Below, one piece after another: positions 3,857 through 40,301 of a stretch of 43,720 bases of DNA (position 1 is its first letter; each line of letters begins with the position of its first letter). Under the pieces are notes generated by a model, which made no database searches, was not told the origin of the DNA, and saw nothing but the letters and a program-made list of their open reading frames with translations. The stretch is from NCBI GenBank assembly GCA_902772455.1, contig CACYAW010000021.1, positions 1 through 43,720 on the forward strand, in the 5' to 3' direction. The position numbers and the translations under genes were made by a program. The DNA is from an uncultured Bacteroidales bacterium (GTDB lineage Bacteria > Bacteroidota > Bacteroidia > Bacteroidales > Muribaculaceae).

Positions 3857-3923
3857 ATTTAGATTTTAGTTGTTAGTTTCTCTCCACTCTAAACTCTAGA
3901 CACTAGACTCTAGACTGCGGGCT
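3857..3923 (-). repeat. Heptad array before the MoxR gene, both orientations
   Basis: The whole 67-base gap upstream of the ATPase start is heptad-like. Read on the coding (minus) strand, stop-proximal units look like GTCTAGA and GTTTAGA, and start-proximal units like AACTAACAACTAAAA, ending directly at the ATG. The two halves are roughly reverse complements, so the RNA could form an imperfect hairpin between the two genes. A separate small hairpin (GCGGGC 3917-3922 with GCCCGC 3929-3934) holds the stop codon of the upstream gene in its loop. Confidence 0.7.
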
Positions 3924-5075
3924 TTATTGCCCGCTTTTAGCGGTAATCCATTCTGCCTTCTTAAGGGGGCCGATAAGGCGGTAAGGGAACATATTGCCCA
4001 GCTCAACCAGCCGGGGGATGTAAGCGATGTCATGCTTGAGCCGTTCCTCGATGTTACCGCACTGGTTCAAGTCGATGACCATGGCGCGGCCGCGGTTCAG
4101 CCTGATGTGTAACAGGTTTTGGCCGGTTTCTTCGTCCTCGGTCAGGTGATACTGAATGTGTTTGCCCTCAAAGAAAGCGTCGATGCTGCGTTGCAGCGGT
4201 GATTGGACTTGGGGGACGGGGTTCGCTTCGCTGTCATTGCCGTTAAACAGACGTTTCAGCCAGCCTTTTATGCCGCTGGGACGCTCTGGCTTCACTGTGG
4301 GCTCATTGCTTGCAACAGGGGCCGTCTGCCAGTCGTCGCGCGCCTCGCCGCGCACGGTGAAACGTCCGTCGCGGGCCATATAGGCAAATTCCACCATGTG
4401 AGGCTTCACTAGGTCCAGATGGTTGATGAAATCGTCGTGAGGGATGGGCAGGTCCAGCGTCTTGTAGGCATTGAGGCGCACCATCAGGTGTGACTTGTGG
4501 CCGTCAACGTGCCGTTTGTCAAACCAGTAGGTGATACCTGTGCCGTCAAAGTAGCGGGTCAGATAGGCGTCCATGTTGTTCATGGCCATGTTGCGCATCT
4601 TCACGCCCTTGCTGTCGGCCTTAAAGGCTGCGGCAATCTGTTCGCGCCACTGGGCTGCATGTTCCAGGAACACTTGGCTGGCCTCCACCACGCGGCTGCG
4701 GTCAATCACCTCCATGGGGGCACCGTTCCACTGCTGGTGGTAGTGCATCTCCTCGATGTCGAGGTTGGTGGTGACGGTGTTACCTTGCACAGCATGACAT
4801 AATGTCAGTCCGCATGGGGATTTCACATTCATCCCCACGCTGTAATTGCCGTTGTCAACCAGCTGTATCATGTCATCGGTAACGATGCCATTGACGAGTT
4901 CTCGATAGGCCGCTTCATACTCCTGTAGCATGCGGGCGCTCAGCAGCGGCCCCGTGCCTTGACGGCCGTTGACCCCTGGTCTGTCGCCAAATGCGGGTTT
5001 CATCACATGGTCAATCTCGCCAGCCACGCGTTGTGACTCGCTCCCTTCTACGTCGGTATAAGTATAGATAAACAT
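3924..5075 (-). CDS. Unknown protein in the MoxR/VWA operon
   Basis: About 383 residues; I recognise no family. I chose the ATG at 5075 (MFIYTYTDVEG) over an upstream TTG at 5093. There is no signal peptide or clear membrane segment, so it is probably cytoplasmic. The protein has two halves, roughly residues 1-235 and 285-383, joined by a Pro/Ser/Lys-rich stretch around 240-285 that includes GIKGWLKRLFNG, a possible amphipathic helix. Both halves contain strand-like segments (SHLMVRLNAYKTL; NLLHIRLNRGRAMVIDL). It is first in the minus-strand operon with the MoxR and VWA genes, so by position it may be a substrate or third component of that chaperone system. Confidence 0.7.
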   Translation of the reverse strand: MFIYTYTDVEGSESQRVAGEIDHVMKPAFGDRPGVNGRQGTGPLLSARMLQEYEAAYRELVNGIVTDDMIQLVDNGNYSVGMNVKSPCGLTLCHAVQGNTVTTNLDIEEMHYHQQWNGAPMEVIDRSRVVEASQVFLEHAAQWREQIAAAFKADSKGVKMRNMAMNNMDAYLTRYFDGTGITYWFDKRHVDGHKSHLMVRLNAYKTLDLPIPHDDFINHLDLVKPHMVEFAYMARDGRFTVRGEARDDWQTAPVASNEPTVKPERPSGIKGWLKRLFNGNDSEANPVPQVQSPLQRSIDAFFEGKHIQYHLTEDEETGQNLLHIRLNRGRAMVIDLNQCGNIEERLKHDIAYIPRLVELGNMFPYRLIGPLKKAEWITAKSGQ

Positions 5076-5118
5076 CACCCTACCAAAAAGCAAAAACCGT
5101 GCCTACTGCCATGTGCCA

Positions 5119-5167
5119 ACCCCTAAAGTCAAAAAACCTAACCCCTAAAACCTAACAACTAAAAACT
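5119..5167 (+). repeat. CTAA-type array upstream of the MBOAT gene
   Basis: Degenerate units such as CCCTAAA, ACCTAAC, CCCTAAAACCTAAC and AACTAAAAACT fill the divergent gap. Unlike the other arrays, a TAnnTTTG box follows it, so this array lies where the -33 region would be and not in the leader. Confidence 0.65.
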
Positions 5168-5173
5168 ATTTAC

Positions 5174-5181
5174 TACCTTTG
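5174..5181 (+). promoter_or_regulatory. TAnnTTTG box for the MBOAT operon
   Basis: TACCTTTG at 5174-5181, ten bases before the ATG at 5192, matches the Bacteroidota -7 consensus. I see no TTTG at the usual distance upstream; that position is occupied by the CTAA-type array. Confidence 0.55.
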
Positions 5182-5191
5182 CGACCGAGTT

Positions 5192-6589
5192 ATGCAATTC
5201 GACACCTATACATACGCCCTGTTCTTGCCTCTGGTGTTTTTCATCTACTGGGGGCTGCGCCGCCACCTCAAGTGGCAAAACCTGTTCTTGCTGGTCGCCA
5301 GCTATGTTTTCTACGGCTGGTGGGACTGGAAGATGCTGGGCCTCATCGTGCTCACGTCGGTGTCAACATTTGGCACGGCGCTGATGATGCGCGGCGACCG
5401 TTCACGGCATGACCGCTCATGGGCTGCAGCCAACATTGTACTCAACCTGGGCATCCTGGCGGTGTTCAAGTATCTGAACTTCATGCGGGACAGTTTTGTG
5501 CACCTGTTGGGACTCTTCGGGGTGAACCCCGACTGGCCCACGTTACACATCCTGTTGCCCGTGGGCATTTCATTCTATACGTTCCAGGCTATCAGTTACA
5601 CCATCGACGTGTATCGGGGCGATGTCAAGCCCACGCGCGATGTGGTGGCCTTTGGCGTGTTCATCGCCTTTTTCCCGCAGCTGGTGGCAGGCCCCATCGA
5701 GCGTGCGACCAATCTGTTGCCCCAGTTCTTGAGGAAGAAGGAATTTGACTATGACACGGCAGTGATCGGCATGCGCCAGATACTGTGGGGACTTTCCAAA
5801 AAGATTATCGTTGCCGACAGCGTGGGCTACTATGTGGACCAGCTGTTGTACAATCCCTATTATTATGCCGCGCCCAGCATGATTTGGGCGGGTCTCTTGT
5901 TCGCTGTGCAGATCTATGCCGACTTCTCGGGTTACAGCGACATCGCCATCGGTTCGGCACGCCTGTTGAACATCAGGCTTCAGCCCAACTTCCGTTACCC
6001 GTTCTTCTCCCGCAACATGAAGGAACTGTGGCAGCGCTGGCACATCTCGTTGATGACCTGGTTCCGCCACTATGTCTATTTCCCCTTGGGCGGTTCGCGG
6101 CGAGGCAAGTGGCGCACGGCCTTGAACGTGATGATCGTCTTTGCGCTCTCCGGTCTGTGGCACGGTGCCGACTGGACGTTTGTCATCTGGGGCACGGTCA
6201 ACGGCCTGTTGCTGTTGCCCTATGTGTTCCTGCCCCGCAAACGGCTCAGCGAACACGCCACGTGGCCCGAGTTGCCGCAGTGCCTGCTCACGTTCTTCCT
6301 GTTTGCCATGGTGTTCATCGCCTTCCGTGCCAACGGCATCACCCACTTGGGTGAGATCTGTGACGTGATTGTGAACGGCTCATGGACCCAGCGGCCCGTC
6401 TTCGGCCAGCCCATTTTCTACATCGTGCCGTTCTTCATCATCGAGTGGCTGGGACGCAAACAGGAGTTCCCCATGAAGCGGATGCCTTTCCCCACCGTTG
6501 TGCGGTGGATCATTTACTGGGGCCTGCTGGCGGGCATCTCCATTGCCAGCCTTGACCGCAACATGCAGTTCATCTATTTCCAGTTCTAG
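5192..6589 (+). CDS. MBOAT family membrane O-acyltransferase (AlgI/DltB-like)
   Basis: A 465-residue multi-pass membrane protein with about ten hydrophobic segments. It carries the family hallmarks: FPQLVAGPIER (161-171), ELWQRWHISL with His284, and GLWHGADWTF with the invariant catalytic His324. MBOAT enzymes of the AlgI/DltB type move acyl groups, usually acetyl, across the inner membrane onto an exported glycan or another envelope acceptor. The next gene starts three bases after the stop and encodes an SGNH-like protein, the usual partner that finishes the transfer outside the membrane (compare AlgX/AlgJ or DltD). No glycan synthesis genes lie nearby, so the acceptor is unknown. Confidence 0.92.
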   Translation: MQFDTYTYALFLPLVFFIYWGLRRHLKWQNLFLLVASYVFYGWWDWKMLGLIVLTSVSTFGTALMMRGDRSRHDRSWAAANIVLNLGILAVFKYLNFMRDSFVHLLGLFGVNPDWPTLHILLPVGISFYTFQAISYTIDVYRGDVKPTRDVVAFGVFIAFFPQLVAGPIERATNLLPQFLRKKEFDYDTAVIGMRQILWGLSKKIIVADSVGYYVDQLLYNPYYYAAPSMIWAGLLFAVQIYADFSGYSDIAIGSARLLNIRLQPNFRYPFFSRNMKELWQRWHISLMTWFRHYVYFPLGGSRRGKWRTALNVMIVFALSGLWHGADWTFVIWGTVNGLLLLPYVFLPRKRLSEHATWPELPQCLLTFFLFAMVFIAFRANGITHLGEICDVIVNGSWTQRPVFGQPIFYIVPFFIIEWLGRKQEFPMKRMPFPTVVRWIIYWGLLAGISIASLDRNMQFIYFQF

Positions 6590-6592
6590 AGT

Positions 6593-7642
6593 ATGGGCGG
6601 TCAATCAGGCATCAGGAAATTTGTGTGTCGCTCGTTGCTGGCGTTGCTCCCGGTAGCGGCATTTGTCGCATTGTACCTTGTTGTGGACCCTTTCAAGGTG
6701 GTGCATTCCTATGACGGCATTTCAATCGCTCCAGGCGAGACGCTTGAGCGTATGCCCAACAAGCGCTATGTGGCTGTCGAGGGCTTGAAATATTACAATC
6801 CCACCCGGCATTACGATTCATTCATCTTCGGATCCTCGATTTCTTCTAATTTCACTGCTGCCGCTTGGGCCCGGAATCTGCCTGACAGCGCCAGTATCTA
6901 TCACTTCACGGCAGGAGCCGAGACTTTGTCGGGAATACGTGACGAATTGCGCTACCTCATTGACAACGGCATTCCTGTGCGTCATGCCTTGATGATTATG
7001 GAAGAGGAAATGTTCCGTCGTCCCAAGCGCTACGAGGAGATGCCGTTTGTGCCGCATTATGACGTGTCCCCCGCCATTACAAGGCTCCATTTCCATCGCT
7101 TGCATTTCAACGCTTTCCGCGACCCGTACATCTTCCTGTATAAATTGTGGCCCACACAGGGCTTAGCCAACAAGTTGGTCGAGGACGGCAAGATGTCCAC
7201 CATTCCCAGCGGACGTGATGAGTTGATTAACGAGGATTCCAGCCGCGGACTGGATTCTCTCATCCAGGGAAACCCCGAGCAGTATTACGGCGAGAGAATG
7301 TGGCTGGTGAATATGGTTCCCACACCCGACCCCAAGCCGTTAAGCATCGACGCTGAAGCACAGCAGACCTTGCGAGAGATTGCCGATATGGTGAACAGCC
7401 ACCACATCGACTGTGTGGTGATTGTGCCGCCGCAGTTCCGCAAGTCGGAGCTTTCACCCATCGACCATGCGGTCCTGTGCGAAATCATGGGTGAAGATAG
7501 GGTTAACGACTTCAGCGGCGACGACGAGCTCATCCATGACCTGCACAGCTACTATGACGGCGTGCACATTCTTACATTCCGTTGTTCGCAGCTCATCGAC
7601 CGCTGCTATTCACGCCGCGATAAACCCCTTATTCTGCAATAA
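6593..7642 (+). CDS. SGNH/DltD-like partner of the MBOAT acyltransferase
   Basis: A 349-residue protein with an N-terminal membrane anchor (about residues 12-31) and the rest probably periplasmic. It shows SGNH-hydrolase features: FIFGSSISSNF with the likely nucleophile Ser81 or Ser82, and near the end YYDGVHILT with Asp322 and His325, the usual D-x-x-H pair. DltD, AlgJ and AlgX have the same layout and work with an MBOAT protein to acylate envelope polymers. The gene starts three bases after the MBOAT stop. The family assignment rests on motifs and gene order, since overall similarity to named members is low. Confidence 0.75.
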   Translation: MGGQSGIRKFVCRSLLALLPVAAFVALYLVVDPFKVVHSYDGISIAPGETLERMPNKRYVAVEGLKYYNPTRHYDSFIFGSSISSNFTAAAWARNLPDSASIYHFTAGAETLSGIRDELRYLIDNGIPVRHALMIMEEEMFRRPKRYEEMPFVPHYDVSPAITRLHFHRLHFNAFRDPYIFLYKLWPTQGLANKLVEDGKMSTIPSGRDELINEDSSRGLDSLIQGNPEQYYGERMWLVNMVPTPDPKPLSIDAEAQQTLREIADMVNSHHIDCVVIVPPQFRKSELSPIDHAVLCEIMGEDRVNDFSGDDELIHDLHSYYDGVHILTFRCSQLIDRCYSRRDKPLILQ

Positions 7643-7677
7643 ACATCAACCAGGCTGGATAGCCGATGATAAGACAA

Positions 7678-7713
7678 CGAGGGTGCGCCACACATGCAGT
7701 GGGCGCACCCTCG
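7678..7713. terminator. Bidirectional hairpin between convergent genes
   Basis: A 12-bp perfect GC-rich stem (CGAGGGTGCGCC 7678-7689 with GGCGCACCCTCG 7702-7713) lies between the SGNH-like gene (plus) and the C10 peptidase gene (minus). There is no long T tract on either side, but the position and stem strength fit a shared terminator. Confidence 0.7.
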
Positions 7714-7738
7714 ATATCGCTTATCGGTGCTGGACTGA

Positions 7739-11062: not shown

Positions 11063-11154
11063 GTCAAAAATTTAGTGTTAATGTTTAATGTTATGGTTGG
11101 TAGTTGATGTATCAAATGGGTGCTTCAGGTAAACGCTAGTGAACTAAAAGCATG

Positions 11155-11185
11155 CAAAAATATAAATTTTTTTACAAATATACAA
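11155..11185 (-). promoter_or_regulatory. Promoter of the C10 peptidase gene
   Basis: On the minus strand TTG (11183-11185), 20 bases, then TATTTTTG (11155-11162), which matches TAnnTTTG. The leader would be about 90 bases long and AT-rich. Confidence 0.6.
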
Positions 11186-11221
11186 TTTTAGGCACGAAAT
11201 TTATCCTTCGTGCCTAAAATT
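11184..11221 (-). terminator. Terminator of the yitT-like gene
   Basis: A 15-bp perfect stem (11184-11198 with 11207-11221; core TTTAGGCACGAA) with an 8-base loop lies 42 bases after the YitT stop codon on the minus strand. It overlaps the -33 element of the next gene, so termination and initiation are packed together. Confidence 0.7.
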
Positions 11222-11263
11222 TTTTGATTTTGGTAGCAAAATGTGCTAAAAACTTGATTTTTG

Positions 11264-12182: not shown

Positions 12183-12202
12183 GCGTGCCTTTTTGTCAAA
12201 AA

Positions 12203-12235
12203 GACTAAGGACTAACAACTAAGGACTAACAACTG
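12203..12235 (+). repeat. CTAA heptad array before the holin-like gene
   Basis: Nearly perfect alternation of GACTAAG/GACTAAC and AACTAAG/AACTAAC heptads, which reads as a 14-base repeat present about twice. It ends three bases before the ATG at 12239. Confidence 0.8.
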
Positions 12236-12238
12236 ATT

Positions 12239-12580
12239 ATGGTTACAAGACTTATTATCTCGGCACTTGCAGTGCTCATCACTTCTCTCACACTCGATGG
12301 CGTGAACGTGGATCCCTGGTGGTGGTCGGTCATCATTGCCGTCGTTCTCGGCTTCATTAACTCGTGGATACGGCCGCTGGTCAAGCTGCTGGCGTTACCC
12401 ATCAATCTGCTGACTTTGGGTTTGTTCACCTTTGTCATCAACGCTTTGATGGTGATGCTGTGTTCATGGCTCGTCGGGCCGCACTTCGAGGTAGATGGCT
12501 TTGGATGGGCGCTGGGATTCAGCATTGTGCTCACGCTGGTGAGCTGGATGCTGCACTTGTTCTTCACCCCCAAGAACTAA
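12239..12580 (+). CDS. Phage-holin-family (YvlD-like) small membrane protein
   Basis: A 113-residue protein that is almost entirely membrane: four hydrophobic segments at about 3-18, 27-45, 50-75 and 85-108. The PLVKLLALPINLLTLGLF stretch is the signature of the phage holin 4 / YvlD-type family found in most Bacteroidota chromosomes. Despite the family name, nothing around it is phage-like. It is convergent with thymidine kinase, with only 14 bases between the stop codons. The function of the chromosomal copies is not known. Confidence 0.85.
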   Translation: MVTRLIISALAVLITSLTLDGVNVDPWWWSVIIAVVLGFINSWIRPLVKLLALPINLLTLGLFTFVINALMVMLCSWLVGPHFEVDGFGWALGFSIVLTLVSWMLHLFFTPKN

Positions 12581-13878: not shown

Positions 13879-14559
13879 ATGCGAATCGATATACTGACAG
13901 TAATGCCCGACGCGCTCGAGTCGCCGTTGCACACCTCCATTCTGCAGCGGGCCCAGGACAAGGGCCTGGTGGAGATTCACGTGCACAACCTGCGTGACTG
14001 GAGCCTGCGCAAGCACCGCAAGGTGGACGACTACCCCTTTGGCGGCGAGGCAGGCATGGTGATGCAGATTGAGCCCGTGTGGCGGTGCATGGAGGAACTG
14101 AAGAGCCAGCGCGAATATGACGAGATCATTTTTACCTCGCCCGATGGTGAGCAACTTGACCAACCCATGGCCAATGCACTGTCGCTCAAGGAGAACATAA
14201 TGATCCTGTGTGGCCACTACAAGGGTGTGGACTATCGCATTCGCGAGCATCTGATTACTAAGGAAATCACCATTGGCGACTATGTGCTCACCGGTGGCGA
14301 ACTGCCTGCCGCAGTCATTGCCGATGCAGTGGTACGCCTGCTGCCTGGAGCCATCGGTGACGAGCAGAGCGCTTTGAGCGACTCCTTCCAGGACGGTCTT
14401 ATCGAGGCTCCCGTCTATACCCGCCCCGAGGTCTTCAACGGCTGGCACGTCCCTGAAATCCTGCTCAGCGGCCACCAGGCCAAAATCGCCGAGTGGAAGA
14501 TGCAGCAGTCGCTCGAACGCACCCGCCGCCTGCGTCCCAACCTGTTGAAAGACGACTAA
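13879..14559 (+). CDS. trmD: tRNA (guanine-N1-)-methyltransferase
   Basis: Methylates N1 of G37 next to the anticodon of certain tRNAs, using S-adenosylmethionine, which prevents frameshifting. The 226-residue length is normal. It starts [11 protein letters not shown], has [12 protein letters not shown], and shows the SPOUT trefoil-knot region [11 protein letters not shown] and [14 protein letters not shown] that binds the cofactor; [22 protein letters not shown] is the conserved C-terminal segment. An ATG at 13871 in another frame opens an overlapping eight-codon ORF ending at 13897. A short CTAA-type leader (CAACAACTAACAACTG, 13856-13871) lies in front. Confidence 0.95.
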
Positions 14560-14604
14560 CAACTTAAAACTTAAAACTTAAAACTTAAAACTAAAAACTA
14601 AAAT
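14560..14604 (+). repeat. CTTAAAA/CTAAAAA array between trmD and ftsB
   Basis: Immediately after the trmD stop codon come four units of AACTTAAA (period 8), then CTAAAAACTAAAA (period 7). The array ends two bases before the ATG at 14607 and fills essentially the whole gap. Confidence 0.8.
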
Positions 14605-14606: not shown

Positions 14607-14915
14607 ATGTCTCCTTTTAAATTCCAACGTCCCAAGTGGATACCGCGATGGCTCAACATCCCGCTGCTGATTTTCGTCGGCTTTGTGGTGGTGCTGTTGT
14701 TCTTTGGGGACAACAACTACATGCGCATCAGCAAGTACCGTTCCCAAATCAACGACCTCAAGAGCCAAATCAAGAACAACGAGGACTCGGCCGCCATCTA
14801 TGACGCCAAGGTCAACGAACTCAACACCGACAAAGAGTCGCTGGAACGTCTCGTGCGCGAGAAATACGGCATGAAGCGTGTCAACGAGGAAGTTTACATT
14901 ACCGATATCCCTTAA
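14607..14915 (+). CDS. Septum formation initiator (FtsB/DivIC family)
   Basis: A 102-residue bitopic membrane protein: a short cytoplasmic N-terminus, one membrane helix (about 20-37), then a coiled coil (about 45-85, YRSQINDLKSQIKNNEDS) and the motif LERLVREKYGMKR, which is diagnostic for the FtsB/DivIC family. It belongs to the divisome subcomplex that activates septal cell-wall synthesis. The next gene follows after six bases. In this lineage it is not possible to say whether FtsB or DivIC is the better name. Confidence 0.88.
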   Translation: MSPFKFQRPKWIPRWLNIPLLIFVGFVVVLLFFGDNNYMRISKYRSQINDLKSQIKNNEDSAAIYDAKVNELNTDKESLERLVREKYGMKRVNEEVYITDIP

Positions 14916-21944: not shown

Positions 21945-23726
21945 ATGTACAGAACCAAGACTAACGGCGAACTTCGCTTGGCCAATGTGGGCGAAGTCGT
22001 GACTCTGGCAGGATGGGTGCAGCGCACCCGCAAGATGGGTGGCATGACATTTGTGGATCTGCGTGACCGCTATGGCATCACCCAAATCGTGTTTAACAAC
22101 GAGGTGAACGCTGAACTGTGTGAGCAGGCCAATCACCTGGGACGTGAGTTTGTCATCCAGGTCGTGGGAACTGTGGCCGAGCGTTCCAGCAAAAACGCCA
22201 ACATCCCCACCGGCGAGATCGAGATCATTGCCGACAAGCTCAACATCTTGAGCGAGAGCATCACCCCGCCATTCACTATCGAGGACAATACCGATGGTGG
22301 CGACGATCTGAGGATGAAGTACCGTTATCTTGACTTGCGCCGCAACGCTGTGCGCAGCAATTTGGAATTGCGCCACGACATGGCTATCCTTATCCGCAAC
22401 TACTTGGATGATAAGGGATTCCTGGAGGTGGAAACGCCTATTCTCATTGGATCGACCCCCGAGGGCGCTCGCGACTTCATCGTGCCCTCACGCATGAACC
22501 CTGGCCAGTTCTACGCTCTGCCCCAGAGCCCCCAGACGCTCAAGCAGTTGCTCATGGTGGCTGGCTTCGACCGCTATTTCCAGATTGCCAAGTGTTTCCG
22601 CGACGAGGACCTGCGCGCCGACCGTCAGCCCGAGTTCACCCAGATTGACTGCGAGATGAGTTTCGTGGACCAGGAAGATGTCATCGACGTTTTTGAGGGG
22701 TTGGCACGTCACCTGTTCAAGAAGGTGCGTAACGTGGACCTGCCTGAGAAGCTGGACCAGATGACCTGGCACGATGCCATGCGTCTTTACGGCAGTGACA
22801 AGCCCGACCGCCGCTTCGGCATGACCTTTGTCGAGGTGGACGACGTGCTCAAGGGCACTGGCACCTTCCCCGTCTTCAACGAGGCCAATTATATCGGTGC
22901 CATCTGTGCTCCCGGCTGTGCCGACTACACGCGCAAGCAGCTCGATGGACTGGTGGATTTCGTCAAGAGGCCGCAAGTGGGCGCCAAGGGCTTGGTATAT
23001 GTCAAGTTCAACACCGACGGCACGGTCAAGAGTAGCATCGACAAGTTCTACGAGCCCGCCGTATGGCAGAAGCTCAAAGAGAAGATGGGTGCCAACGATG
23101 GCGACCTCGTCCTCATCATGAGCGGTGACAATGCCAACAAGACGCGTGTGCAGCTCTGCACCTTGCGTCTGGAGATGGGTGAGCGTCTGGGCTTGAGGGA
23201 CAAGAACAAGTTCGAGTGCCTGTGGATTATTGACTTCCCCCTGTTTGAGTGGAGTGACGAGGAGCAGCGCCTGATGGCAACACACCATCCCTTCACAATG
23301 CCCAACCCCGACGATATCCCCCTGCTCGACGAGCATCCCGAGAAGGTAAGGGCCAAAGCCTACGACTTCGTGTGCAACGGCATCGAGGTGGGTGGCGGCA
23401 GTCTGCGTATCCATGACGGCAAGCTGCAGGCCAAGATGTTTGACATCCTGGGCTTCACTCCCGAGCGCGCCATGGCACAGTTCGGCTTCCTGATTAACGC
23501 CTTCAAGTACGGTGCGCCTCCTCACGCAGGTCTGGCCTTCGGTTTCGACCGTTTCGTCTCGATCATGGCAGGTTTGGACAGCATCCGTGACTGCATCGCC
23601 TTCCCCAAGAACAATAGCGGCCGCGATGTCATGCTTGATGCTCCCAGCCCCGTGGACCAGAGCCAGCTCGACGAACTCTATATCGACGTGGATCGCGAGC
23701 GCCTGAAAGCCGAGAACAAGATTTAA
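21945..23726 (+). CDS. aspS: Aspartyl-tRNA synthetase
   Basis: Charges tRNA-Asp with aspartate. At 593 residues it is the long bacterial type. The N-terminal OB-fold anticodon-binding domain ([24 protein letters not shown]) is followed by the class II catalytic core. Motif 2 is around [23 protein letters not shown] (written here in part), the bacterial GAD insertion lies between about 290 and 420, and motif 3 is GLAFGFDRF. Nothing unusual is seen. It is flanked upstream by a TAnnTTTG box and downstream by a large inverted pair of heptad arrays. Confidence 0.97.
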
Positions 23727-23732
23727 TTACAA

Positions 23733-23851
23733 AAGTTTTAAGTTCTTAGTTGTTAGTTTTTAGTACGGTTGCTCTCGCCTGAAAATGCGAGTTAAAAGGT
23801 AATATTACTAAAAACTAACAACTAAAAACTAAGGACTTAAAACTAACAACT
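23733..23851 (+). repeat. Inverted pair of heptad arrays between aspS and nif3-like gene
   Basis: After the aspS stop comes a TTAG-type array (23734-23765). A 40-base spacer follows, then a CTAA-type array (23806-23851) ending just before the nif3-like ATG. Bases 23746-23765 and 23806-23825 are a perfect 20-bp inverted repeat, and pairing continues imperfectly outside it. The spacer RNA should fold into a long hairpin that separates two co-directional genes. There is no T tract at the end, so it is not a classical terminator. Confidence 0.85.
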
Positions 23852-23857
23852 CACACC

Positions 23858-24658
23858 ATGCAAATAAAGGAAATCACCGACGCCATCGAGCAATACGCTC
23901 CCTTGAGACTTCAGGAGGAGTGGGACAATGCGGGCATCCAGGTGGGTGACCCCGAGGCCCAGGTCACAGGCATTCTGCTCTGTACCGATGCTACCGAGAC
24001 CGTTGTGGCCGAGGCCATCGAGCGCGGCTACAACCTGGTCATCTCGCATCACCCGCTCATCTTCCGCGGTCTCAAGAAAATTATGGGCCGTACGCCTGTT
24101 GAGCGTACCGTGGCCATGGCCATCAAGCACGATGTCACCATCTACAGCGCCCACACCAATATGGACAGCGCCTGGCAGGGTGTCTCGTTCCGCATGGCCG
24201 AAAAGATAGGCATGACCAATGTCGAGTTCCTCGATAATCATTGTGTGGACTCCTACGGTGACGCGCAATGTACTGCTGCCGGATGCGGCGTGATTGGTGA
24301 CATCGAGCCCAAGCCTGCCCGCGAGGTACTCAAGCTGGTCAAGGATGCCTTCGAGGTGGGTGCCGTGCGCTATAGCGGCGACGGTGACTGCATGGTCAGC
24401 CGTGTGGCGTTGTGTGGTGGCGCTGGAGGATTCCTGCTAGACAAAGCCGTCGAGGCGGGAGCCCAACTCTATGTTACTGCCGACATGCGGTACCACGACT
24501 TCCTGGATAACAGCCAGCGTATCGTTGTGGCTGACATCGGGCATTACGAGAGCGAACATTTCACAAAAGAGATTTTTTTAGAGATTATTCGGAAAAAAAG
24601 TCCTACCTTTGCAGTCGCTTTCGCAAAAAACGAAACGAATCAAGTGAATTATCTATAA
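23858..24658 (+). CDS. Nif3-like dinuclear metal-centre protein
   Basis: A 266-residue protein of the Nif3/DUF34 family, which forms hexameric toroids with two metal ions per subunit. Metal-ligand motifs are visible: ISHHPLIF, HTNMDSA, and near the C-terminus DIGHYESEHF. The length is that of the short form; members of about 370 residues carry an internal PII-like insertion that is missing here. The family is often labelled GTP cyclohydrolase type 2, but the real reaction is not settled. Its 3' end holds a possible promoter (TACCTTTG at 24604-24611) for the next gene. Confidence 0.9.
   Translation: MQIKEITDAIEQYAPLRLQEEWDNAGIQVGDPEAQVTGILLCTDATETVVAEAIERGYNLVISHHPLIFRGLKKIMGRTPVERTVAMAIKHDVTIYSAHTNMDSAWQGVSFRMAEKIGMTNVEFLDNHCVDSYGDAQCTAAGCGVIGDIEPKPAREVLKLVKDAFEVGAVRYSGDGDCMVSRVALCGGAGGFLLDKAVEAGAQLYVTADMRYHDFLDNSQRIVVADIGHYESEHFTKEIFLEIIRKKSPTFAVAFAKNETNQVNYL
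24604..24611 (+). promoter_or_regulatory. Possible internal promoter within the nif3-like gene
   Basis: TACCTTTG lies in a locally AT-rich stretch at the 3' end of the nif3-like coding region, about 130 bases before the zinc-ribbon gene. It could drive that gene independently. A -33 element is not obvious, so this is tentative. Confidence 0.4.
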
Positions 24659-24700
24659 ATTAGGCATTTGGCGATAGGCTTCAGGTGTTAGTAATAACGA

Positions 24701-24736
24701 CCTAAAGTCTAAAGCCTAAAACCTAAAACCTAAACA
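24701..24736 (+). repeat. CTAA array before the zinc-ribbon gene
   Basis: Units CCTAAAGTCTAAAG, CCTAAAA, CCTAAAA, CCTAAAC, ending five bases before the ATG. A partial inverted match (GATAGGCTTCAGG at 24673-24685 against the CTAAAGCCTA part) lies closer to the nif3-like stop codon, so the array again has a weak opposing arm. Confidence 0.75.
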
Positions 24737-24741: not shown

Positions 24742-25512
24742 ATGGCAACACAGAAGAAAGAACTCACCGTTGAAGAGAAACTCAAAGCGCTCTACGACTT
24801 GCAGCAAAAGCTCTCAGAGATTGACGCCATCAAGACCCTGAGGGGTGAACTTCCCCAGGAGGTGCAGGATCTGGAAGATGAAATCGCCGGTCTGCACACA
24901 CGCATGGCAAAATTTGAGGACGAAGTCGCTGTACAAAAAGAAGAGTTGGCTCGCAACCGCGACATCAAGGCTAAGTCTGAGGAACTCATCGACAAGTACA
25001 CCGCCGACCAGGACAACGTGCGCAACAACCGTGAGTACGACTATCTGACAAAGGAGATTGAATACCAGACCCTTAACATCGAGCTTGCCGAGAAGAAGAT
25101 GAATGAGGCAACACGCCGTGCCGAGGCTCTCAAGAACGAAATCGAGAAAGCCAAGGAGCAGTGCGCCGACCGTGAGCACGCGCTCGAGGAGAAGAAGAGC
25201 GAGCTCAACGAAATCGTATCGGAGAACAAGCAAAAGGAGGAAACCCTGCGTGAGAAAGCCAAGAAACAGGAAAACAAGATTGAAGAGCGTCTGTTGACCG
25301 CTTTCAAGCGCATCCGCAAGAACACCCGCAATGGCTTGGGCATTGTTGTCGTTCAGCGCAACGCCTGCGGCGGCTGCTTCAACCGCATCCCCGCACAGCG
25401 CCAGATGGAGATCAAGATGCACAAGAAGGTCATCGTGTGTGAGTACTGCGGACGCATCCTCATCGACCCCGAGTTGGTAGGTATCGCTCCCGAGGAGGCC
25501 AAGAACAAATAA
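24742..25512 (+). CDS. Coiled-coil protein with C4 zinc ribbon (DUF164/CdsZ type)
   Basis: A 256-residue soluble protein. Residues about 8-190 are almost all heptad-patterned charged helix (long coiled coil, rich in Glu and Lys). The C-terminus has four cysteines in two pairs, CGGC (NACGGCFNRI) and CEYCGRIL, the C4-type zinc ribbon of the DUF164 family. Homologues in many bacteria sit beside Nif3-like genes, as here; chlamydial CdsZ belongs to the same family. A role in RNA or trafficking complexes has been suggested for relatives, but the function here is unknown. Confidence 0.9.
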   Translation: MATQKKELTVEEKLKALYDLQQKLSEIDAIKTLRGELPQEVQDLEDEIAGLHTRMAKFEDEVAVQKEELARNRDIKAKSEELIDKYTADQDNVRNNREYDYLTKEIEYQTLNIELAEKKMNEATRRAEALKNEIEKAKEQCADREHALEEKKSELNEIVSENKQKEETLREKAKKQENKIEERLLTAFKRIRKNTRNGLGIVVVQRNACGGCFNRIPAQRQMEIKMHKKVIVCEYCGRILIDPELVGIAPEEAKNK

Positions 25513-32533: not shown

Positions 32534-32549
32534 CGATACATAAACAAAT

Positions 32550-34357: not shown

Positions 34358-34387
34358 AGAATAGACTTGCTTGACGAGTGATATAGT

Positions 34388-34427
34388 GGACGGGTTGGAC
34401 TTAATGTCGCAGCCCGTCCTTTTTTTT
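34388..34427 (+). terminator. Intrinsic terminator after the response regulator
   Basis: Stem GGACGGG (34388-34394) with CCCGTCC (34413-34419), extended by TG/CA pairs, followed by eight T. A clear rho-independent terminator. Confidence 0.88.
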
Positions 34428-34437
34428 CGATTACAAT

Positions 34438-34649
34438 TAATGATAATTCATGGCCATTTCTGCTCATTCGTGTTTTCATTTAACCGGAACGGCCACAAAT
34501 ATCCATCAATGGTCATGAATATTTTATTAATGGTGATTCATGGACATTTCTGGTCATTCGTGTTTTTCATTTAGCAGGAATATTTTATTTATGGTGATTC
34601 ATGGTCATTCGTGTTTCTATATAACATGAATGCTCATGAATATTTTATT
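34438..34649. repeat. AT-rich tandem repeats, three degenerate copies
   Basis: The stretch 34358-34766 has no gene. After the terminator come three related units of about 50-60 bases (starting near 34438, 34529 and 34590). They share GATTCATGG, TGGTCATTCGTGTTT and the tail ATGAATATTTTATT; inverted pieces (CATGAAT/ATTCATG) are scattered through them. The block is far more AT-rich than its surroundings. No coding potential is seen. It stops about 50 bases before the promoter of the ATPase gene. Confidence 0.8.
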
Positions 34650-34696
34650 ATAAGTCTATCGGGAGAAGGGTGAGGATGAAATATTATTTCCAATGA

Positions 34697-34728
34697 TTTG
34701 CGTAATTAAAAAAATATTACGTACTTTG
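34697..34728 (+). promoter_or_regulatory. Possible promoter of the AAA ATPase gene
   Basis: TTTG (34697-34700), 20 bases, GTACTTTG (34721-34728), one mismatch from TAnnTTTG. Confidence 0.5.
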
Positions 34729-34766
34729 CATTATTAAAATTTAATAATGGATTTTCGATAATATTT

Positions 34767-35912: not shown

Positions 35913-35961
35913 CCTGCTGCTGGCATGGTTTTTGTAATAGAGCCGTTAAAAAGCGGATTCC

Positions 35962-36031
35962 AACTAACAACTAAGGACTAACAACTAAGGACTAAGGACT
36001 AACAACTAAGGACTAATAAACTAAGGACTAA
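35962..36031 (+). repeat. Long CTAA heptad array before the GYF-domain gene
   Basis: About ten consecutive heptads of the form (A/G)ACTAA(C/G), mostly AACTAAG, GACTAAC and GACTAAG, running up to two bases before the ATG at 36033. This is the longest and most regular of the arrays. Confidence 0.85.
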
Positions 36032-36032
36032 A

Positions 36033-36977
36033 ATGGAATTTCATCTGATTAGAAACGGAAAACAGGAAGGTCCGTTTACCGTCGAAGAATTGTCGCAGCA
36101 GGGGATTAGCCCCGAGAGCGAAGTGTGGGCGCCCGGCATGGCCGACTGGATGCAGGCCGGCGACGTGCCCGAGCTGACCGCCGTGCTGCAGCGTGCCGAG
36201 TTTGAGGCCTCGCAGCAGGCCGCCCGTGCCGCCGAGAACCAGGCGACCATGGGCCAGCCCTATGACCCCGTGGTGCCTCCTACCCAGGCGCCGCCTCAAG
36301 TGCCTCCCCGTTGGCCCATTGAGGACGATACGAAGAAGAAAAGCGGCTGCACGCCGTGGCTCATCGCCGCCCTGGTACTGGCCATCCTGTTTGCCACGAT
36401 GGTATTCACCTGCCCCGACCGTCAAGCCCATGAATCTGCCATCCAGGAGGTCACTAAGTCCTGGGTGGATGACAAAGTGGACGAGAACTTGGGCAGCATC
36501 ACCGGCGTTGGCGGTGTGTTTGGCGACCTTATCAACAAGGCCCTCAAGCAACTGACGGGCTTCGGAACCGACAAGGTCATCTCCAATTACCTCGACGTCA
36601 AGAACTATATCGTGTGCTCGGTGGGCCGCATGAGCATCGGCGACAACGAGGACAAGATGGTGTCGCTGGGCGTCTTCGGCCACGTGTTCACCTTCGGCAA
36701 GGAGGATATTGAGAAGGCCTGGACCCGTGCAATGGACGACTACGAGGCCAACCATCACATCACCCCGCCGCCCGCTCCCGCACCTCAGACCGATGAGGAC
36801 CCCGATGCCGATGCGCAGGACGAGGAGGACATGACCGATCCCCGCATGCTGCCTGACAGCGTGATGGGCATCGAGATTCCCGAGGGCATGGACTCCATGG
36901 TCAATCAGATGGCTAACGAGGCTATCCGCATGGCCAAGGAATGGGCCAAGCAGCAAATCGACAACCTGGGCCATTAA
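36033..36977 (+). CDS. GYF_2-domain membrane protein with DUF4359-like region
   Basis: A 314-residue protein. Residues 1-50 are a GYF_2-type domain (HLIRNGKQEGPFTVEELSQQ, WAPGMADWMQAGDVPEL), a fold that binds proline-rich peptides. A Pro-rich linker (about 72-92) and a membrane helix (about 106-124, TPWLIAALVLAILFATMVF) follow. The part after the helix (about 130-235, QEVTKSWVDDKVDENLGSI, FGHVFTFGKEDIEKAW) resembles DUF4359. The tail is acidic, then helical (VNQMANEAIRMAKEWAKQQI). It is convergent with a zinc-ribbon membrane protein, with a shared terminator between. The function is unknown. Confidence 0.8.
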   Translation: MEFHLIRNGKQEGPFTVEELSQQGISPESEVWAPGMADWMQAGDVPELTAVLQRAEFEASQQAARAAENQATMGQPYDPVVPPTQAPPQVPPRWPIEDDTKKKSGCTPWLIAALVLAILFATMVFTCPDRQAHESAIQEVTKSWVDDKVDENLGSITGVGGVFGDLINKALKQLTGFGTDKVISNYLDVKNYIVCSVGRMSIGDNEDKMVSLGVFGHVFTFGKEDIEKAWTRAMDDYEANHHITPPPAPAPQTDEDPDADAQDEEDMTDPRMLPDSVMGIEIPEGMDSMVNQMANEAIRMAKEWAKQQIDNLGH

Positions 36978-36994
36978 GCCGGTTGTCACGACAA

Positions 36995-37038
36995 ACAATC
37001 AAGGGCTTGCATCCATTTGCAGGCCCTTGATTGTTTTA
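36995..37038 (+). terminator. Terminator after the GYF-domain gene
   Basis: A 12-bp stem (ACAATCAAGGGC 36995-37006 with GCCCTTGATTGT 37023-37034), an inner TGCA/TGCA pairing, and a T run (TTGTTTT) at the end. Confidence 0.85.
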
Positions 37039-37076
37039 GCTCGGAAGGGGGTGAGAATGTCGGTCGGGTTATTGCC

Positions 37077-37745
37077 TTATCCGCCGCACGCTTTTATCAT
37101 GAACATGAAGAACATGAAAATCAGTACCATGGTCAGGCAGCTCATCCTGCGCGGTTGAGGACCCGGACGCACGGGACCATTGTCCTGACCGTCAGTTTGT
37201 GGCGTCGTATAGCTGTACATGCTGCGGTGGGGAATGAGAATCTGACGGGGACCGCCGTTGTTGTAGGGGCCGATGGCGCCGCCGGCTTCGAGTTGGCGGA
37301 TGAGCTCGGCTGCCCGCTCGTTGCTGATATGGAAATGGTCGCGCAGCATCATGGGTGTGATGGCCGTGCAGGTCATCAGGAATTGTATTGCATCGTTGTA
37401 GAGCGGGTCGCTGTCGGGGAGGGGCGGCGGCAGCACGGTCACGTCCTCGGGAGCCGTATCAACAGCAGTTGTCGGCGGGGTGGGGGAGGTGTCGAAGCTG
37501 GCACCGCAGTTGGGACAGAAGTGGGCGTTGCTGTTGGCCTCGTGTCCGCACTTGGGGCAGTTGATGGTGTGTGACGGCTTAACGCTGGTGTCCAGGTCGA
37601 GCGACTCATGGGGGATGTAAGCATAGTCGCCCACGATCTGCAGTTCACACAGGCATTGGGGGCAGATGACCTTGTAGTTGCTGTTGATGAGCACCTCGGT
37701 GCTCAGGTCCATCTTTTTACCGCATTTGGGACAGGTGTAGTTCAT
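37077..37745 (-). CDS. Zinc-ribbon membrane protein with FtsK-gamma-like winged helix
   Basis: A 222-residue protein built from distinct parts. Residues 1-40 hold a first zinc ribbon (CPKC at 5-8, CPQC at 28-31). Residues 60-85 hold a second (CPKC at 63-66, CPNC at 77-80). A Pro/Thr-rich linker follows. Residues 112-170 (DPLYNDAIQFLMTCTAI, NERAAELIRQLEAGGAIGP, PRQIL) match the winged-helix gamma domain of FtsK, which reads KOPS sites on DNA. A C-terminal membrane helix (about 203-218) ends in ACGG. No motor domain is present. The FtsK-gamma assignment is from pattern recognition and quite strong; the function is unknown. Own promoter upstream. Confidence 0.85.
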   Translation of the reverse strand: MNYTCPKCGKKMDLSTEVLINSNYKVICPQCLCELQIVGDYAYIPHESLDLDTSVKPSHTINCPKCGHEANSNAHFCPNCGASFDTSPTPPTTAVDTAPEDVTVLPPPLPDSDPLYNDAIQFLMTCTAITPMMLRDHFHISNERAAELIRQLEAGGAIGPYNNGGPRQILIPHRSMYSYTTPQTDGQDNGPVRPGPQPRRMSCLTMVLIFMFFMFMIKACGG

Positions 37746-37765
37746 ATTGTTGTTTTGTTGGGTTA

Positions 37766-37799
37766 CAAAGGTAGTTTAATTATGTGCAAAGCATGCAAA
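37766..37799 (-). promoter_or_regulatory. Promoter of the zinc-ribbon/FtsK-gamma-like gene
   Basis: On the minus strand TTTG (start near 37799), 22 bases, TACCTTTG (37766-37773), 20 bases before the ATG. Confidence 0.65.
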
Positions 37800-37879
37800 A
37801 ACCGTGCCTAATTATTATGAAAAAACGATACTAGATTTAGCAAAATGGCGGGATATTTTAGTTTTTTTAAGAAAAATGC

Positions 37880-37909
37880 TTGTATTTTTTGATTTTATCC
37901 GTATTTTTG
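37880..37909 (+). promoter_or_regulatory. Promoter of the porin operon
   Basis: TTG (37880-37882), 19 bases, TATTTTTG (37902-37909), followed by a leader of about 70 bases. Confidence 0.65.
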
Positions 37910-37986
37910 CAATCAGTTTGTTGGATGGCAAGCGATAGCAAGCATATAACATATAATGATTTTATAAACCTTTTAAACAACAAGTT

Positions 37987-39360
37987 ATGAGCAAGAAATT
38001 ACTGACATTGATGATTGGACTTGCCATTTCCCTAACGGGAAGTGTGTGGGCCCAGGACACCGAAGAGGAAGAGGTGACCTACAATCAGTATGGTGTTCGT
38101 GTCGATCGTGAGGCTCTCCACGCCGAGCAGCGCAACAACATCCTGGTCCTGGAATCAAAGAGCAAGAAGTACAAGGTGTGGTTTGATAACCGTGTACAGG
38201 TGGACGGTGCCACCTTCTTTGGCAAGAACCACTCTGACTACAACCCCATTGGTAATGGTGCGTCGATCAGGCGTGCGCGTTTTGCCGTTAAGGCCCAAGT
38301 GACTCCCGACTGGTATGGTGAGATTGATATGGACATGGCCGACGGTGTGTTCGAGCTCAAGGACGCTATCATCGAGTATGACGGTCTGGAGCACTTCGCC
38401 TTCAAGGCAGGTAACTTCAAGGAGGACTTCTCGATGGAGCAGACCACGACCTCTCGCTACCTGACCTTCATGGAGCGCCCGATGTTGTGTAAGGCACTGG
38501 TGCCCTCGCGCCACATCGGTATCCAGGGTGAGTACCTGCTCGACCACTTCAGGGCATCGCTGGGTATGTTCTTCCAGACGGTGGCCGGCAGTGAGGAGGC
38601 CACCAACGTCCAGGACAACAACAAGGACTTTGGCCGCAGCCAGGGCTATTCGTTCACCGGTAAGCTGGGCTACATGCCCTACAGCAAGGACCGCTACTGG
38701 GGCCTGTACTTGGGCGGCAAGGGTTCTTACCGCACCCCCAAGACCGACGTGGCCACCAATGAGTATGGCGGCATCCGCTACAGCACCCGCAATGCCACGA
38801 GCATTAACCGTAAGAAATACCTTGACACCGATGTGATTCCCGATGTGGATCATGAGTGGCTCTATGGTCTTGAAGGCGCTGCCTATTTTGGCCCTGCCCG
38901 CATCCAGAGCGAGTGGGTCGGAAGCCATGTGAGCGCTGCTAAGAACAGCTATAACTTTGGTGGTTGGTATGTTGCTGCGACCTACCTGCTGCTGGGTGGC
39001 CAGCAACGCTTCAACGTTGCCGAGGGTGAGTTTACACAGCCTTCGAGTGGCCGCAAGTGGGGTGACATTGAGCTGGCCCTGCGCTATGACTATCTGGACC
39101 TGAACAATGGCGACATCTACGGTGGTTCGGGTGAGAACTACACCGCTGGCCTGAACTTCTATTTTGGCAATGCTGTCAAGATTGTCCTCAACTACCAGTA
39201 CAGTAACAATGACCGCTATGCCAACGGCAAGGGCAAACTCTTCATCGGTCACGATGCCACCGGTGCCCCCACTACCGACTACACCAAGGCTGTTGAGGGC
39301 AAGGGCAAAGGCGGTGTGAGCTACCACATGCTGGGCCTGCGTTTCGAGATTGACTTCTAA
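37987..39360 (+). CDS. OprO/OprP-like outer membrane porin
   Basis: A 457-residue protein. The signal peptide is 1-22 (ending SVWAQ). The mature part has the phosphate-selective porin O/P layout: KYKVWFDNRVQVDGATFF, then SIRRARFAVKAQVTPDWYGE and the EIDMDMADG strand, and a barrel ending in LGLRFEIDF, a typical terminal strand for outer-membrane insertion. OprP and OprO of Pseudomonas are phosphate and pyrophosphate channels; Bacteroidota members of the fold are often annotated this way, but their selectivity is rarely tested. Its stop codon overlaps an ATG of the next reading frame; the lipoprotein start proper is 29 bases on. Confidence 0.88.
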   Translation: MSKKLLTLMIGLAISLTGSVWAQDTEEEEVTYNQYGVRVDREALHAEQRNNILVLESKSKKYKVWFDNRVQVDGATFFGKNHSDYNPIGNGASIRRARFAVKAQVTPDWYGEIDMDMADGVFELKDAIIEYDGLEHFAFKAGNFKEDFSMEQTTTSRYLTFMERPMLCKALVPSRHIGIQGEYLLDHFRASLGMFFQTVAGSEEATNVQDNNKDFGRSQGYSFTGKLGYMPYSKDRYWGLYLGGKGSYRTPKTDVATNEYGGIRYSTRNATSINRKKYLDTDVIPDVDHEWLYGLEGAAYFGPARIQSEWVGSHVSAAKNSYNFGGWYVAATYLLLGGQQRFNVAEGEFTQPSSGRKWGDIELALRYDYLDLNNGDIYGGSGENYTAGLNFYFGNAVKIVLNYQYSNNDRYANGKGKLFIGHDATGAPTTDYTKAVEGKGKGGVSYHMLGLRFEIDF

Positions 39361-39389
39361 TGGACAACCACTTTAAAGACATTACGACA

Positions 39390-40223
39390 ATGAAAAAGAT
39401 ACAATTAGCATTCATGCTGCTGGCCGTGGTTTTGCTGGCCTCGTGTGTAAAAGATAACGTATATGAAGGCCCGTCCAAAATCGAAGCCGTTACCATGTCG
39501 CCCGAGGCACCCACCTCGTTTGACGATGTTGTGATCACGGTCAATGTCTCTGGCCTTCAGGCAGTGAAAACCGCCACGCTGAATTATAAAGCAGACGCAA
39601 AATCCGCTAGCCTGCCCATGGCTGGCAACGGCAATACTTATACAGCCACCATTCCCGCCCAACCCGACGGAACCAAGGTAACCTATACCGTGACCATCGA
39701 GAATGAGGTCGGTTACACCACCGTTTCGCCCGAGAAGGAGTTTACCGTGGGCGACAAACCCTCGGACTTCACCAAGCTGGTATTGAACGAGCTGTATGGC
39801 GCCGCCGATGCCGATAAGTTCATCGAGCTGTACAATAACGGTGACGATCCCATCAAGCTGAAGGATGTTGTCATCAAGAAGGATGAGGAAGAGAGCTGGA
39901 GAGGTCTGGACGGCGAAGTCATCATGGGTCACAGCTTCTTCACCATCGTGGGAGCCAAGGGAACCACCCCGCGCGGTTTCTCCAGTGGTTTCTCCAGCAA
40001 GAAGAGCGTGCTCGTTGAGCTCTATGATCCCAACAACAATCTGTTGGATAAGTTCCAGCGCGGCGAGAAGGAAGACGCTTGGGGCAACCAGTCGCTGGCC
40101 AAGGTGTCCGGTTCGTGGAGCCGCTGTCCCAACGGCACCGGCAAGTTCATGATTACCGATACGCCCACCCTGGGTGAGAAGAATCCCGACACCGGTACCG
40201 AGGATCCCACTGTAGTTCAATAA
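39390..40223 (+). CDS. Lamin-tail-domain lipoprotein
   Basis: About 277 residues from the ATG at 39390 (MKKIQLAFMLLAVVLLASC, lipobox Cys19); an in-frame ATG at 39360 gives a poorer signal peptide. Residues about 25-120 look like an Ig-like or FN3-like domain (VTYTVTIENEVGYTT). Residues about 130-265 are a lamin-tail domain (LTD): LVLNELYGAADADKFIELYN, IKLKDVVIKKDEE, SSKKSVLVELYDPNNNLLD. LTD proteins in Bacteroidota are cell-surface or periplasmic and often accompany phosphatases or nucleases. It is probably co-transcribed with the porin and ends at a strong hairpin. Confidence 0.85.
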   Translation: MKKIQLAFMLLAVVLLASCVKDNVYEGPSKIEAVTMSPEAPTSFDDVVITVNVSGLQAVKTATLNYKADAKSASLPMAGNGNTYTATIPAQPDGTKVTYTVTIENEVGYTTVSPEKEFTVGDKPSDFTKLVLNELYGAADADKFIELYNNGDDPIKLKDVVIKKDEEESWRGLDGEVIMGHSFFTIVGAKGTTPRGFSSGFSSKKSVLVELYDPNNNLLDKFQRGEKEDAWGNQSLAKVSGSWSRCPNGTGKFMITDTPTLGEKNPDTGTEDPTVVQ

Positions 40224-40251
40224 TTCAAGTTTCACATGGGTGAAACTTGAA
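40224..40251 (+). terminator. Hairpin directly after the lipoprotein gene
   Basis: A 12-bp perfect stem (TTCAAGTTTCAC 40224-40235 with GTGAAACTTGAA 40240-40251) and a 4-base loop start at the base after the stop codon. There is no T tract, as a TTAG-type array follows. Confidence 0.75.
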
Positions 40252-40301
40252 GTTTAGAGTTTAGAGTTTAGAGTTTAGGGCTTAGAGTTTAGGGTTTAGA
40301 G
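40252..40301 (+). repeat. TTAG-type heptad array (GTTTAGA)
   Basis: Seven consecutive heptads, GTTTAGA with GTTTAGG/GCTTAGA variants. The sequence is the reverse complement of the CTAA type. One matching unit, CCCTAAAC, occurs at 40329-40336 closer to the next start codon. The 166-base gap otherwise holds the hairpin above and nothing else I can name. Confidence 0.85.

Follow-up and report, generated by a model that had tools for sequence, protein, structure and literature searches.

The DNA stretch analysed here (the window) comprises 43,720 nucleotides of an uncultured Bacteroidales bacterium of the Muribaculaceae and is contig C21 of an assembly of 3,153,659 bases that is 87% complete. Between its genes lie tandem arrays of seven-base units, which appear in a CTAA sense directly ahead of start codons and in the mirrored TTAG sense after stop codons. 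A preliminary description, drawn from the letters of the window, had placed such arrays before several unrelated genes. Ten CTAA- or TTAG-type arrays were located at the claimed sites, the neighbouring gene names that were tested agreed with Pfam matches (AAA_5 ATPase (MoxR-like), MBOAT, Phage_holin_4_2, DivIC, DUF34_NIF3, Zn_ribbon_9 and GYF_2), and the CTAA or CTTA form was on the sense strand next to the ATGs of the array-bearing genes. A short array said to precede trmD was not recovered; a scan for adjacent heptad pairs lists no further array, and the gene that was meant was not identified. Rfam covariance models, applied to the window at the gathering score, returned two tRNAs only and no array or leader family.

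On the reverse strand, the array ACTAACAACTAAAATCTAAAT (3858-3878) precedes the AAA_5/MoxR-like gene (2786-3856) in the CTAA sense, and an AGTYTAG-type array (3880-3916) lies downstream of the gene at 3924-5093. The latter adjoins, at its 5′ side, a GCGGGC/GCCCGC stem-loop (3917-3934) that overlaps the stop codon of this gene; the stem-loop was read from the sequence and, with 6 Watson-Crick pairs against a threshold of 7, stands outside the 21 counted below. All other features are on the forward strand. A CCTAA/ACTAA array (5137-5168) is present upstream of the MBOAT gene (5192-6589), as had been described, with the ATG 23 bases on and a putative promoter between the two. Arrays of ACTAAGG/ACTAACA units (12200-12234) and of ACTTAAA/ACTAAAA units (14552-14603) precede the Phage_holin_4_2 gene (12239-12580) and the DivIC gene (14607-14915), respectively, and the second fills the gap and overlaps the upstream stop codon. 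After the stop of the gene at 21945-23726, a TTAG-sense arm (23733-23764) pairs with a CTAA-sense arm (23807-23855) that stands before the NIF3 gene (23858-24658). A degenerate TTAG-sense arm follows the NIF3 stop (24660-24692), and a CCTAAAA/CCTAAAG array (24702-24734), in a gap with a minimum free energy of -26.1 and a z-score of -4.5, precedes the zinc-ribbon gene (24742-25512). The leader of the GYF_2 gene (36033-36977) is an ACTAAGG/ACTAACA array (35961-36031). Finally, the stop of the gene at 39360-40223 is followed by a stem-loop of 13 pairs, CAAGTTTCAC/GTGAAACTTG (40224-40250), and immediately 3′ of it by an AGTTTAG array (40251-40299). The proposal that TTAG-type repeats follow the upstream stop thus holds in three gaps; in the fourth (24660-24692), only a degenerate version was recognised, by eye.

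Such arrays occur throughout the host genome and very rarely within genes. A simple hexamer script called 628 genes in 843,720 bases of the host; it is biased towards upstream ATGs, and its start sites are approximate. The 454 gaps of this sample hold 77 period-7 arrays, compared with a mean of 1.1 and a maximum of 4 in 20 dinucleotide shuffles of the gaps, and the whole genome has 198 overlapping matches to ACTAANNACTAANNACTAA compared with 5 for a reversed-pattern control. The shuffles and the control rule out chance or A-richness alone as the source of the arrays. All 59 CTAA-N3 arrays with at least three units in the host stretches are intergenic, and the next strongest period-7 cores overlap units already in these arrays. 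With a stricter score cut and no limit on sequence, 65 period-7 arrays lie between genes and 2 within them; periods 5, 6, 8 and 10 yield at most 3 arrays each, and period 9 yields 15 intergenic arrays and 2 in genes. At periods 5, 6, 8, 9 and 10, the CTAA core itself forms only 2 arrays, both of period 8.

The orientation of the arrays is strict, with CTNA ahead of starts and the mirrored TNAG after stops. The preliminary description had allowed that arrays might prove no more frequent before start codons than elsewhere, or might be randomly oriented there. This was not the outcome: 22 of 27 strict ACTAANN arrays of the host face the next start, 3 face a stop and 2 are divergent, with none in convergent gaps or in genes, and in the held-out host contigs 16 are forward, 2 reverse and 1 at a contig edge. 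Our test sets were the first host stretches, the held-out contigs, one relative (G023) and nine sets of relatives. A cruder, earlier rule compared the C and G contents of an array. Under this rule, arrays of the nine sets lying within 40 bases of a gene end were 25 C-rich and 1 G-rich before starts and 6 and 41 after stops (p=7e-13; not counted are 25 more distant arrays, 3 ties and 1 array within a gene); the corresponding counts were 23/5 and 13/31 in the first host stretches, also within 40 bases (p=2.5e-5), 12/2 and 5/15 in the held-out contigs (p=0.0013), and 8/2 and 3/15 in G023 (p=0.0033). The CTNA/TNAG score, which was defined after the held-out results under the cruder rule were known, was applied to tandem gaps of at least 60 bases. 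CTNA arrays were closer to the start in 24 cases and to the stop in 3 in the first stretches, 15 and 5 in the held-out contigs, and 11 and 4 in G023; for TNAG arrays, the counts were 0 and 26, 1 and 12, and 0 and 13, respectively; for the two array types together, the held-out contigs alone give p=2e-4. When host and G023 are pooled, with 3 unassigned arrays excluded, 50 of 62 CTNA arrays are closer to the start and 12 to the stop, and 51 of 52 TNAG arrays are closer to the stop and 1 to the start (p=1.4e-19). Relative to the nearer gene, the TNAG sense is seen in 18 of 24 arrays of convergent gaps, and in divergent gaps 7 of 9 are in the CTNA sense (1 unassigned); arrays in gaps shorter than 60 bases often run from stop to start with both forms present. 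Tandem gaps hold arrays more often than divergent ones (56 of 342 vs 4 of 68, p=0.024; convergent, 8 of 69). Across a larger sample, 1.24 Mb of the host genome with 158 arrays, 66 of the 80 nearest a start are in the CTNA sense and 60 of the 78 nearest a stop in the TNAG sense.

The same 158 arrays show that the class of the unit goes with the landmark, although the class definitions were drawn from looking at these data and need a fresh test. ACTNANN arrays (77) precede the ATG: the 57 that are nearest a start are all in the CTNA sense, at distances of -4 to 57 bases (median 4), and the 20 nearest a stop are split evenly, 10 in each sense. TTAGGYN arrays (17) lie across the stop codon, with 11 nearest a stop in the TNAG sense, 10 of those at -9 to 0, and the whole stop codon inside the array in 8 cases. 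AGTYTAG arrays (32) lie past a 3′ stem-loop; 23 are nearest a stop in the TNAG sense, at a median of 27 bases past it. Of the 32, 21 have a stem-loop of at least 7 pairs that ends at their 5′ side and none has one at the other end, compared with a baseline of 13% of 1,647 random intergenic positions and with 0 of 17 TTAGGYN, 3 of 14 RNTTAGR and 6 of 95 remaining arrays. Seven of the 21 stem-loops share a GCTCGC/GCGAGC stem, four of these being tandem copies at one place (locus L228); the remaining 14 differ in sequence and therefore look like each gene's own 3′ stem-loop. What follows these stem-loops is the array and not the U run of an intrinsic terminator. The RNTTAGR arrays (14) include 8 at a stop, 6 of which overlap the stop codon, and 6 that reach a start in the TNAG sense and so break the rule. 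The TTAG arrays thus look like a second system, with unit classes of its own, at stop codons and after 3′ stem-loops.

A tag, GCATCCGC, follows 10 of 34 AGTTTAG-type arrays, 4 of 66 TTAGTYN arrays and 0 of 32 others; being present at a minority of two classes only, it cannot be the conserved centre of all arrays. We also observed a composite unit, a GC-rich stem-loop or GCTCGC repeat followed by an AGTTTAG or related array and then often by GCATCCGC, at L228:2544-2812 and on host contigs at C18:7077-7217, C2:57639-57680 and C4:584-613. In L228 and C18 its copies follow one another at intervals of about 60 bases, and it may constitute an independent dispersed element.

The orientation rule survives a change of heptad identity between genera. 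ACTAANN arrays are present in 32 of 61 relatives, 78 of 297 genomes of the family and 82 of 395 of the phylum (the host is counted in each set), with up to 470 matches. Each genome has its own final two bases of the unit: AA, GG or CA in 122 of 139 host units, CC in all 20 sampled from genome G290, and TT or CT in 21 of 21 from G161 and 15 of 15 from G253. Relatives found through the reversed control pattern use AATCATN units (G199, G232, G259 and G337 were looked at). In G225, 6 of 7 arrays are more than 40 bases from any gene end. As separate observations, many matches to AATCA-N2 occur in G397, G450, G513, G654 and G199, so other heptad families exist in the phylum, and G522, a distant member outside the home class, has 159 ACTAANN matches.

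Genome-specific units would be expected if the heptads were sites for a trans-acting RNA- or DNA-binding factor that recognises a five-base core, with the last two bases as a spacer, because the specificity of the factor would change between lineages. In 49 ACTAA arrays, positions 1 to 5 vary in 1 to 11 arrays, position 6 in 40 and position 7 in 26; separate classes at separate landmarks also suit such a factor, and a binder has been proposed for the TAACTGA heptamer (PMC4679880). However, most of the relatives in the core-variation count had been selected with the ACTAANN pattern, a choice that favours that core; the spacing between array and ATG is broad; and shared unit flavours could equally stem from dispersal. 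RRM_1 proteins gave no match in 30 genomes of the genus, array-rich and array-poor, in a search whose control matched in 2 of 14 genomes and which covers a host assembly that is 87% complete; sites for an RRM protein are thereby set aside, and cold-shock, S1 and other candidates were not searched. We regard a binding factor as rather unlikely. A broader version, to which we likewise assign little probability, would make the heptad classes a lineage-specific punctuation code of the mRNA that marks the start, the stop and the 3′ stem-loop; in each lineage, a change in a trans-acting factor, either an RNA-binding protein or a repeat-writing template, would carry all the heptads with it.

Shine-Dalgarno-like 4-mers precede 47 of 626 called starts in the host, a lineage with few such sites. 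Compared with 1,102 other leaders, 69 CTNA-array leaders are poorer in G and more often have A at -3 (0.70 vs 0.44), -6 (0.59 vs 0.39), -12 (0.64 vs 0.41) and -13 (0.64 vs 0.48). ATG, GTG or TTG occurs at -20 to -1 in 4 of the 69 and in 468 of the 1,102, some of which overlap an upstream gene. The predicted unpaired fraction of the start region is 0.665 in 34 array leaders, 0.521 in 418 ordinary leaders and 0.434 when the arrays are reversed, values that argue, as predictions, for the unstructured A-rich leader that had been suggested earlier. In Flavobacterium johnsoniae, A at -3, -6, -12 and -13 and low structure are reported as positive determinants of initiation (PMC6847099), and structure is reported to have cut a reporter five-fold in Prevotella bryantii. 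More generally, Bacteroidetes initiation regions are described as having no Shine-Dalgarno sequence, low structure and a preference for A at these positions (PMC3155529, PMC6847099). The array leaders share these features; unlike them, the regions described in the available portions of these papers are not said to contain tandem repeats.

We therefore favour, at about even odds (a probability near 0.5), the reading that the arrays are repeats driven by slippage and retained as unstructured leaders in an initiation that does without Shine-Dalgarno pairing. Tandem repeats of a seven-base unit would be grown and shuffled by slippage at the untranslated ends of genes, and their orientation would be set by their role in the mRNA. 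Before a start, the CTNA strand would give a G-poor, A-rich, unfolded leader with few alternative starts, of the kind that suits initiation in Bacteroidota. An array in the opposite orientation would fold, mask the start region and therefore be lost. After stops and past 3′ stem-loops, the mirrored TNAG strand would stand with its own unit classes, and where both arms share an intercistronic gap they could pair into a stem-loop between stop and start. The data themselves show where the arrays lie and how they are oriented, the tie between class and landmark, the composition of the leaders, their predicted accessibility and the turnover of units; slippage as the source, removal by selection and an effect on translation are what we infer here.

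Several observations weigh against this reading. Shuffling hardly closes the arrays (0.635 unpaired, vs 0.665 in their native form, p=0.02), so that accessibility accounts for orientation and composition but for neither the heptad nor its conserved core, and conserved the core is: among the 49 ACTAA arrays, position 2 varies in a single array. Accessibility also leaves the 3′ arrays unexplained. These oppose their background, since C mostly exceeds G in sequences after stops and G exceeds C in the array regions. For alternative starts, the contrast depends on called starts and is approximate, as the script favours upstream ATGs. Exceptions to the orientation rule exist as well: 14 of the 80 start-nearest arrays are in the TNAG sense (6 RNTTAGR, 3 TTAGGYN, 3 AGTYTAG and 2 others), and 18 of the 78 stop-nearest arrays are in the CTNA sense.

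Two facing arms in one gap raise the question of whether the arrays form the arms of hairpins between cistrons and so serve to couple, insulate or process adjacent genes, another role named in the preliminary description. The gap at 23727-23857, whose two arms pair, folds at -46.2 kcal/mol (z -8.4). Across species, the arms of a gap match each other better than they match the arms of other species at the NIF3 locus (p=0.0005, n=10), in 16 gaps of further sets (p=0.009) and in all 37 two-arm gaps, one of them counted twice (p<5e-5). However, this signal is confounded by the genome-wide flavour of the units, and within the host genome pairing is no better between matched arms than between mismatched ones (p=0.13 with n=11; p=0.07 with n=19 and p=0.32 with n=15 in further tests). 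Array gaps overall are no more structured than others by fold z-score (p=0.92), and 1 gene, compared with 1.9 expected, has an array at both its 5′ and its 3′ end, so that paired arrays on one gene are also rejected. A hairpin function is quite improbable as a general model and is retained for particular gaps.

At single loci, the number and type of units vary between close relatives, as expected of the dispersed, fast-evolving repeat family that had been proposed to form 5′ leaders, and these differences fit slippage. Relatives of the GYF_2 gene among named records occupy 34 loci, all in uncultured Bacteroidales assemblies. RUG, RGIG or sheep names are attached to 27 of them, and RUG we take to denote rumen genomes; the bacterium is probably a rumen-dwelling member of the Bacteroidota. 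Thirty of the 34 begin at the gene start and are usable orthologs. Seven of these (L161-L164, L169, L183 and L188) carry heptads no more than 90 bases from the start, the leaders of most of the others shown are free of heptads, and in orthologs 91-94% identical the unit types differ from those of the window. Upstream of NIF3, among 12 genomes at 82-90% identity, 7 have two arms; of the other five, judged by eye, 2 have a single arm, 1 has a CTAGA-type repeat and 2 have neither. Between NIF3 and the zinc-ribbon gene, 8 of 13 genomes, the window included, carry a heptad or related insert of differing sequence, and 5 have a short gap without repeats.

These differing inserts, together with the patchy spread of ACTAANN among relatives, family and phylum, also suit a selfish or mobile satellite that is copied between loci and tolerated only at untranslated ends, its orientation reflecting the purging of harmful insertions. 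Y1_Tnp proteins, the transposase type associated with repetitive extragenic palindromes (REPs), match in 30 of 30 genomes; the 16 array-rich ones average 4.1 matches and the 14 array-poor ones 2.9 (p=0.09), which indicates no clear link to the arrays, and local slippage accounts for the variable number of units. We consider a satellite unlikely.

Because 7 is not a multiple of 3, a repeated unit that holds a stop codon puts stops in every frame, and the arrays might be six-frame stop cassettes. Stops are present on both strands in 78 of 83 host arrays, compared with 24% of random intergenic heptads. After stop codons, single-base variants of host units keep the sense stop in 56 of 64 cases (48.7 expected, p=0.015) and the antisense stop in 57 of 64 (47.9 expected, p=0.004), and those of relatives keep the sense stop in 50 of 54 (43.6 expected, p=0.011). 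Before starts, however, stops are kept at the expected rate, both in the host (30 of 37, 28.5 expected, p=0.36) and in relatives (22 of 29, 21.6 expected, p=0.52). An array made mostly of ACTTACA units, a stop-free type, was also seen, and the orientation is unaccounted for. With no preservation before starts and a weak signal after stops, we reject this very improbable idea.

The preliminary description knew of no earlier account of such leaders, but one exists. MacGregor (2015; PMC4679880) reports direct repeats of the heptamer TAACTGA, whose near variants are seldom repeated, in Beggiatoaceae, Cyanobacteria and Bacteroidetes; in F. litoralis, 12 of 14 sets are intergenic and forward to a start, and one is reversed just after a stop. 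Those repeats resemble ours in being intergenic, heptanucleotide and direct, mostly forward and a few bases ahead of the starts of unrelated genes, and patchy across species, and a translational role was proposed for them. Here, the units are other heptads (ACTAANR, ACTNANN and others) of much variety. From what can be seen of that paper, the arrays also differ in having unit classes tied to the start, the stop and the 3′ stem-loop, in having mirrored 3′ arrays about as frequent as 5′ arrays (78 vs 80), and in a heptad identity that changes between genera while the rule stays. The host arrays are tandem intergenic heptads, and the 5′ arrays are forward before starts; as the unit is not TAACTGA, we treat them as a variant of the MacGregor repeats and not as a member. 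Among the literature matches listed for such leaders in Bacteroidales, mostly judged by title or the opening of the abstract, this was the only paper on heptamers before starts, and mirrored 3′ arrays as an equal partner, landmark classes, a rule that survives heptad change and the scale in uncultured Bacteroidales were not met there.

Other repeats are more distant. Long simple sequence repeats with heptanucleotide units are abundant in some genomes (Mrazek et al. 2007, as cited in PMC4679880), and heptad repeats are described in Xanthomonas and Nostoc (PMC4692102); the unit length is alike, and no orientation rule at gene ends is reported in the accessible parts of these sources. The palindromes of the REP/REPIN type (PMC3116915, PMC3733652, likewise seen in part) are also dispersed, extragenic and in some cases hairpin-forming. 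In contrast, ACTNANN arrays are tandem and mostly single-armed, with no shared palindrome by inspection, and Y1 transposase counts do not clearly track them.

There is as yet no settled account of how Bacteroidota pick their start codons in the absence of Shine-Dalgarno pairing, and evolution seems to have built leaders repeatedly from a strictly oriented simple repeat, which offers many natural variants. If repeat class and strand mark the ends of genes, they would provide a sequence-only cue to transcript ends in uncultured Bacteroidota and an aid for correcting start calls. They would also invite one to ask which process spreads the heptads or makes them uniform.

Some minor observations remain. 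Upstream of the GYF_2 leader of the window lies a sigma-54-like -24/-12 element, TGGCATGGTTTTTGTA (35921-35936, forward strand). A loose pattern of this type is present upstream in 23 of the 30 GYF_2 orthologs (among L161-L194), although the leader that follows changes completely. In the ortholog leader of L169, the gap at 2391-2500 has a TTAGGC array and then a CCTAAAG array, likely a hairpin. Finally, ten arrays of a 9-base unit with a palindromic core, TCTAGANNN, were observed in the host stretches (e.g., C1:19234-19320, C1:35006-35056 and C11:25316-25384) and represent a second period beside the heptads.

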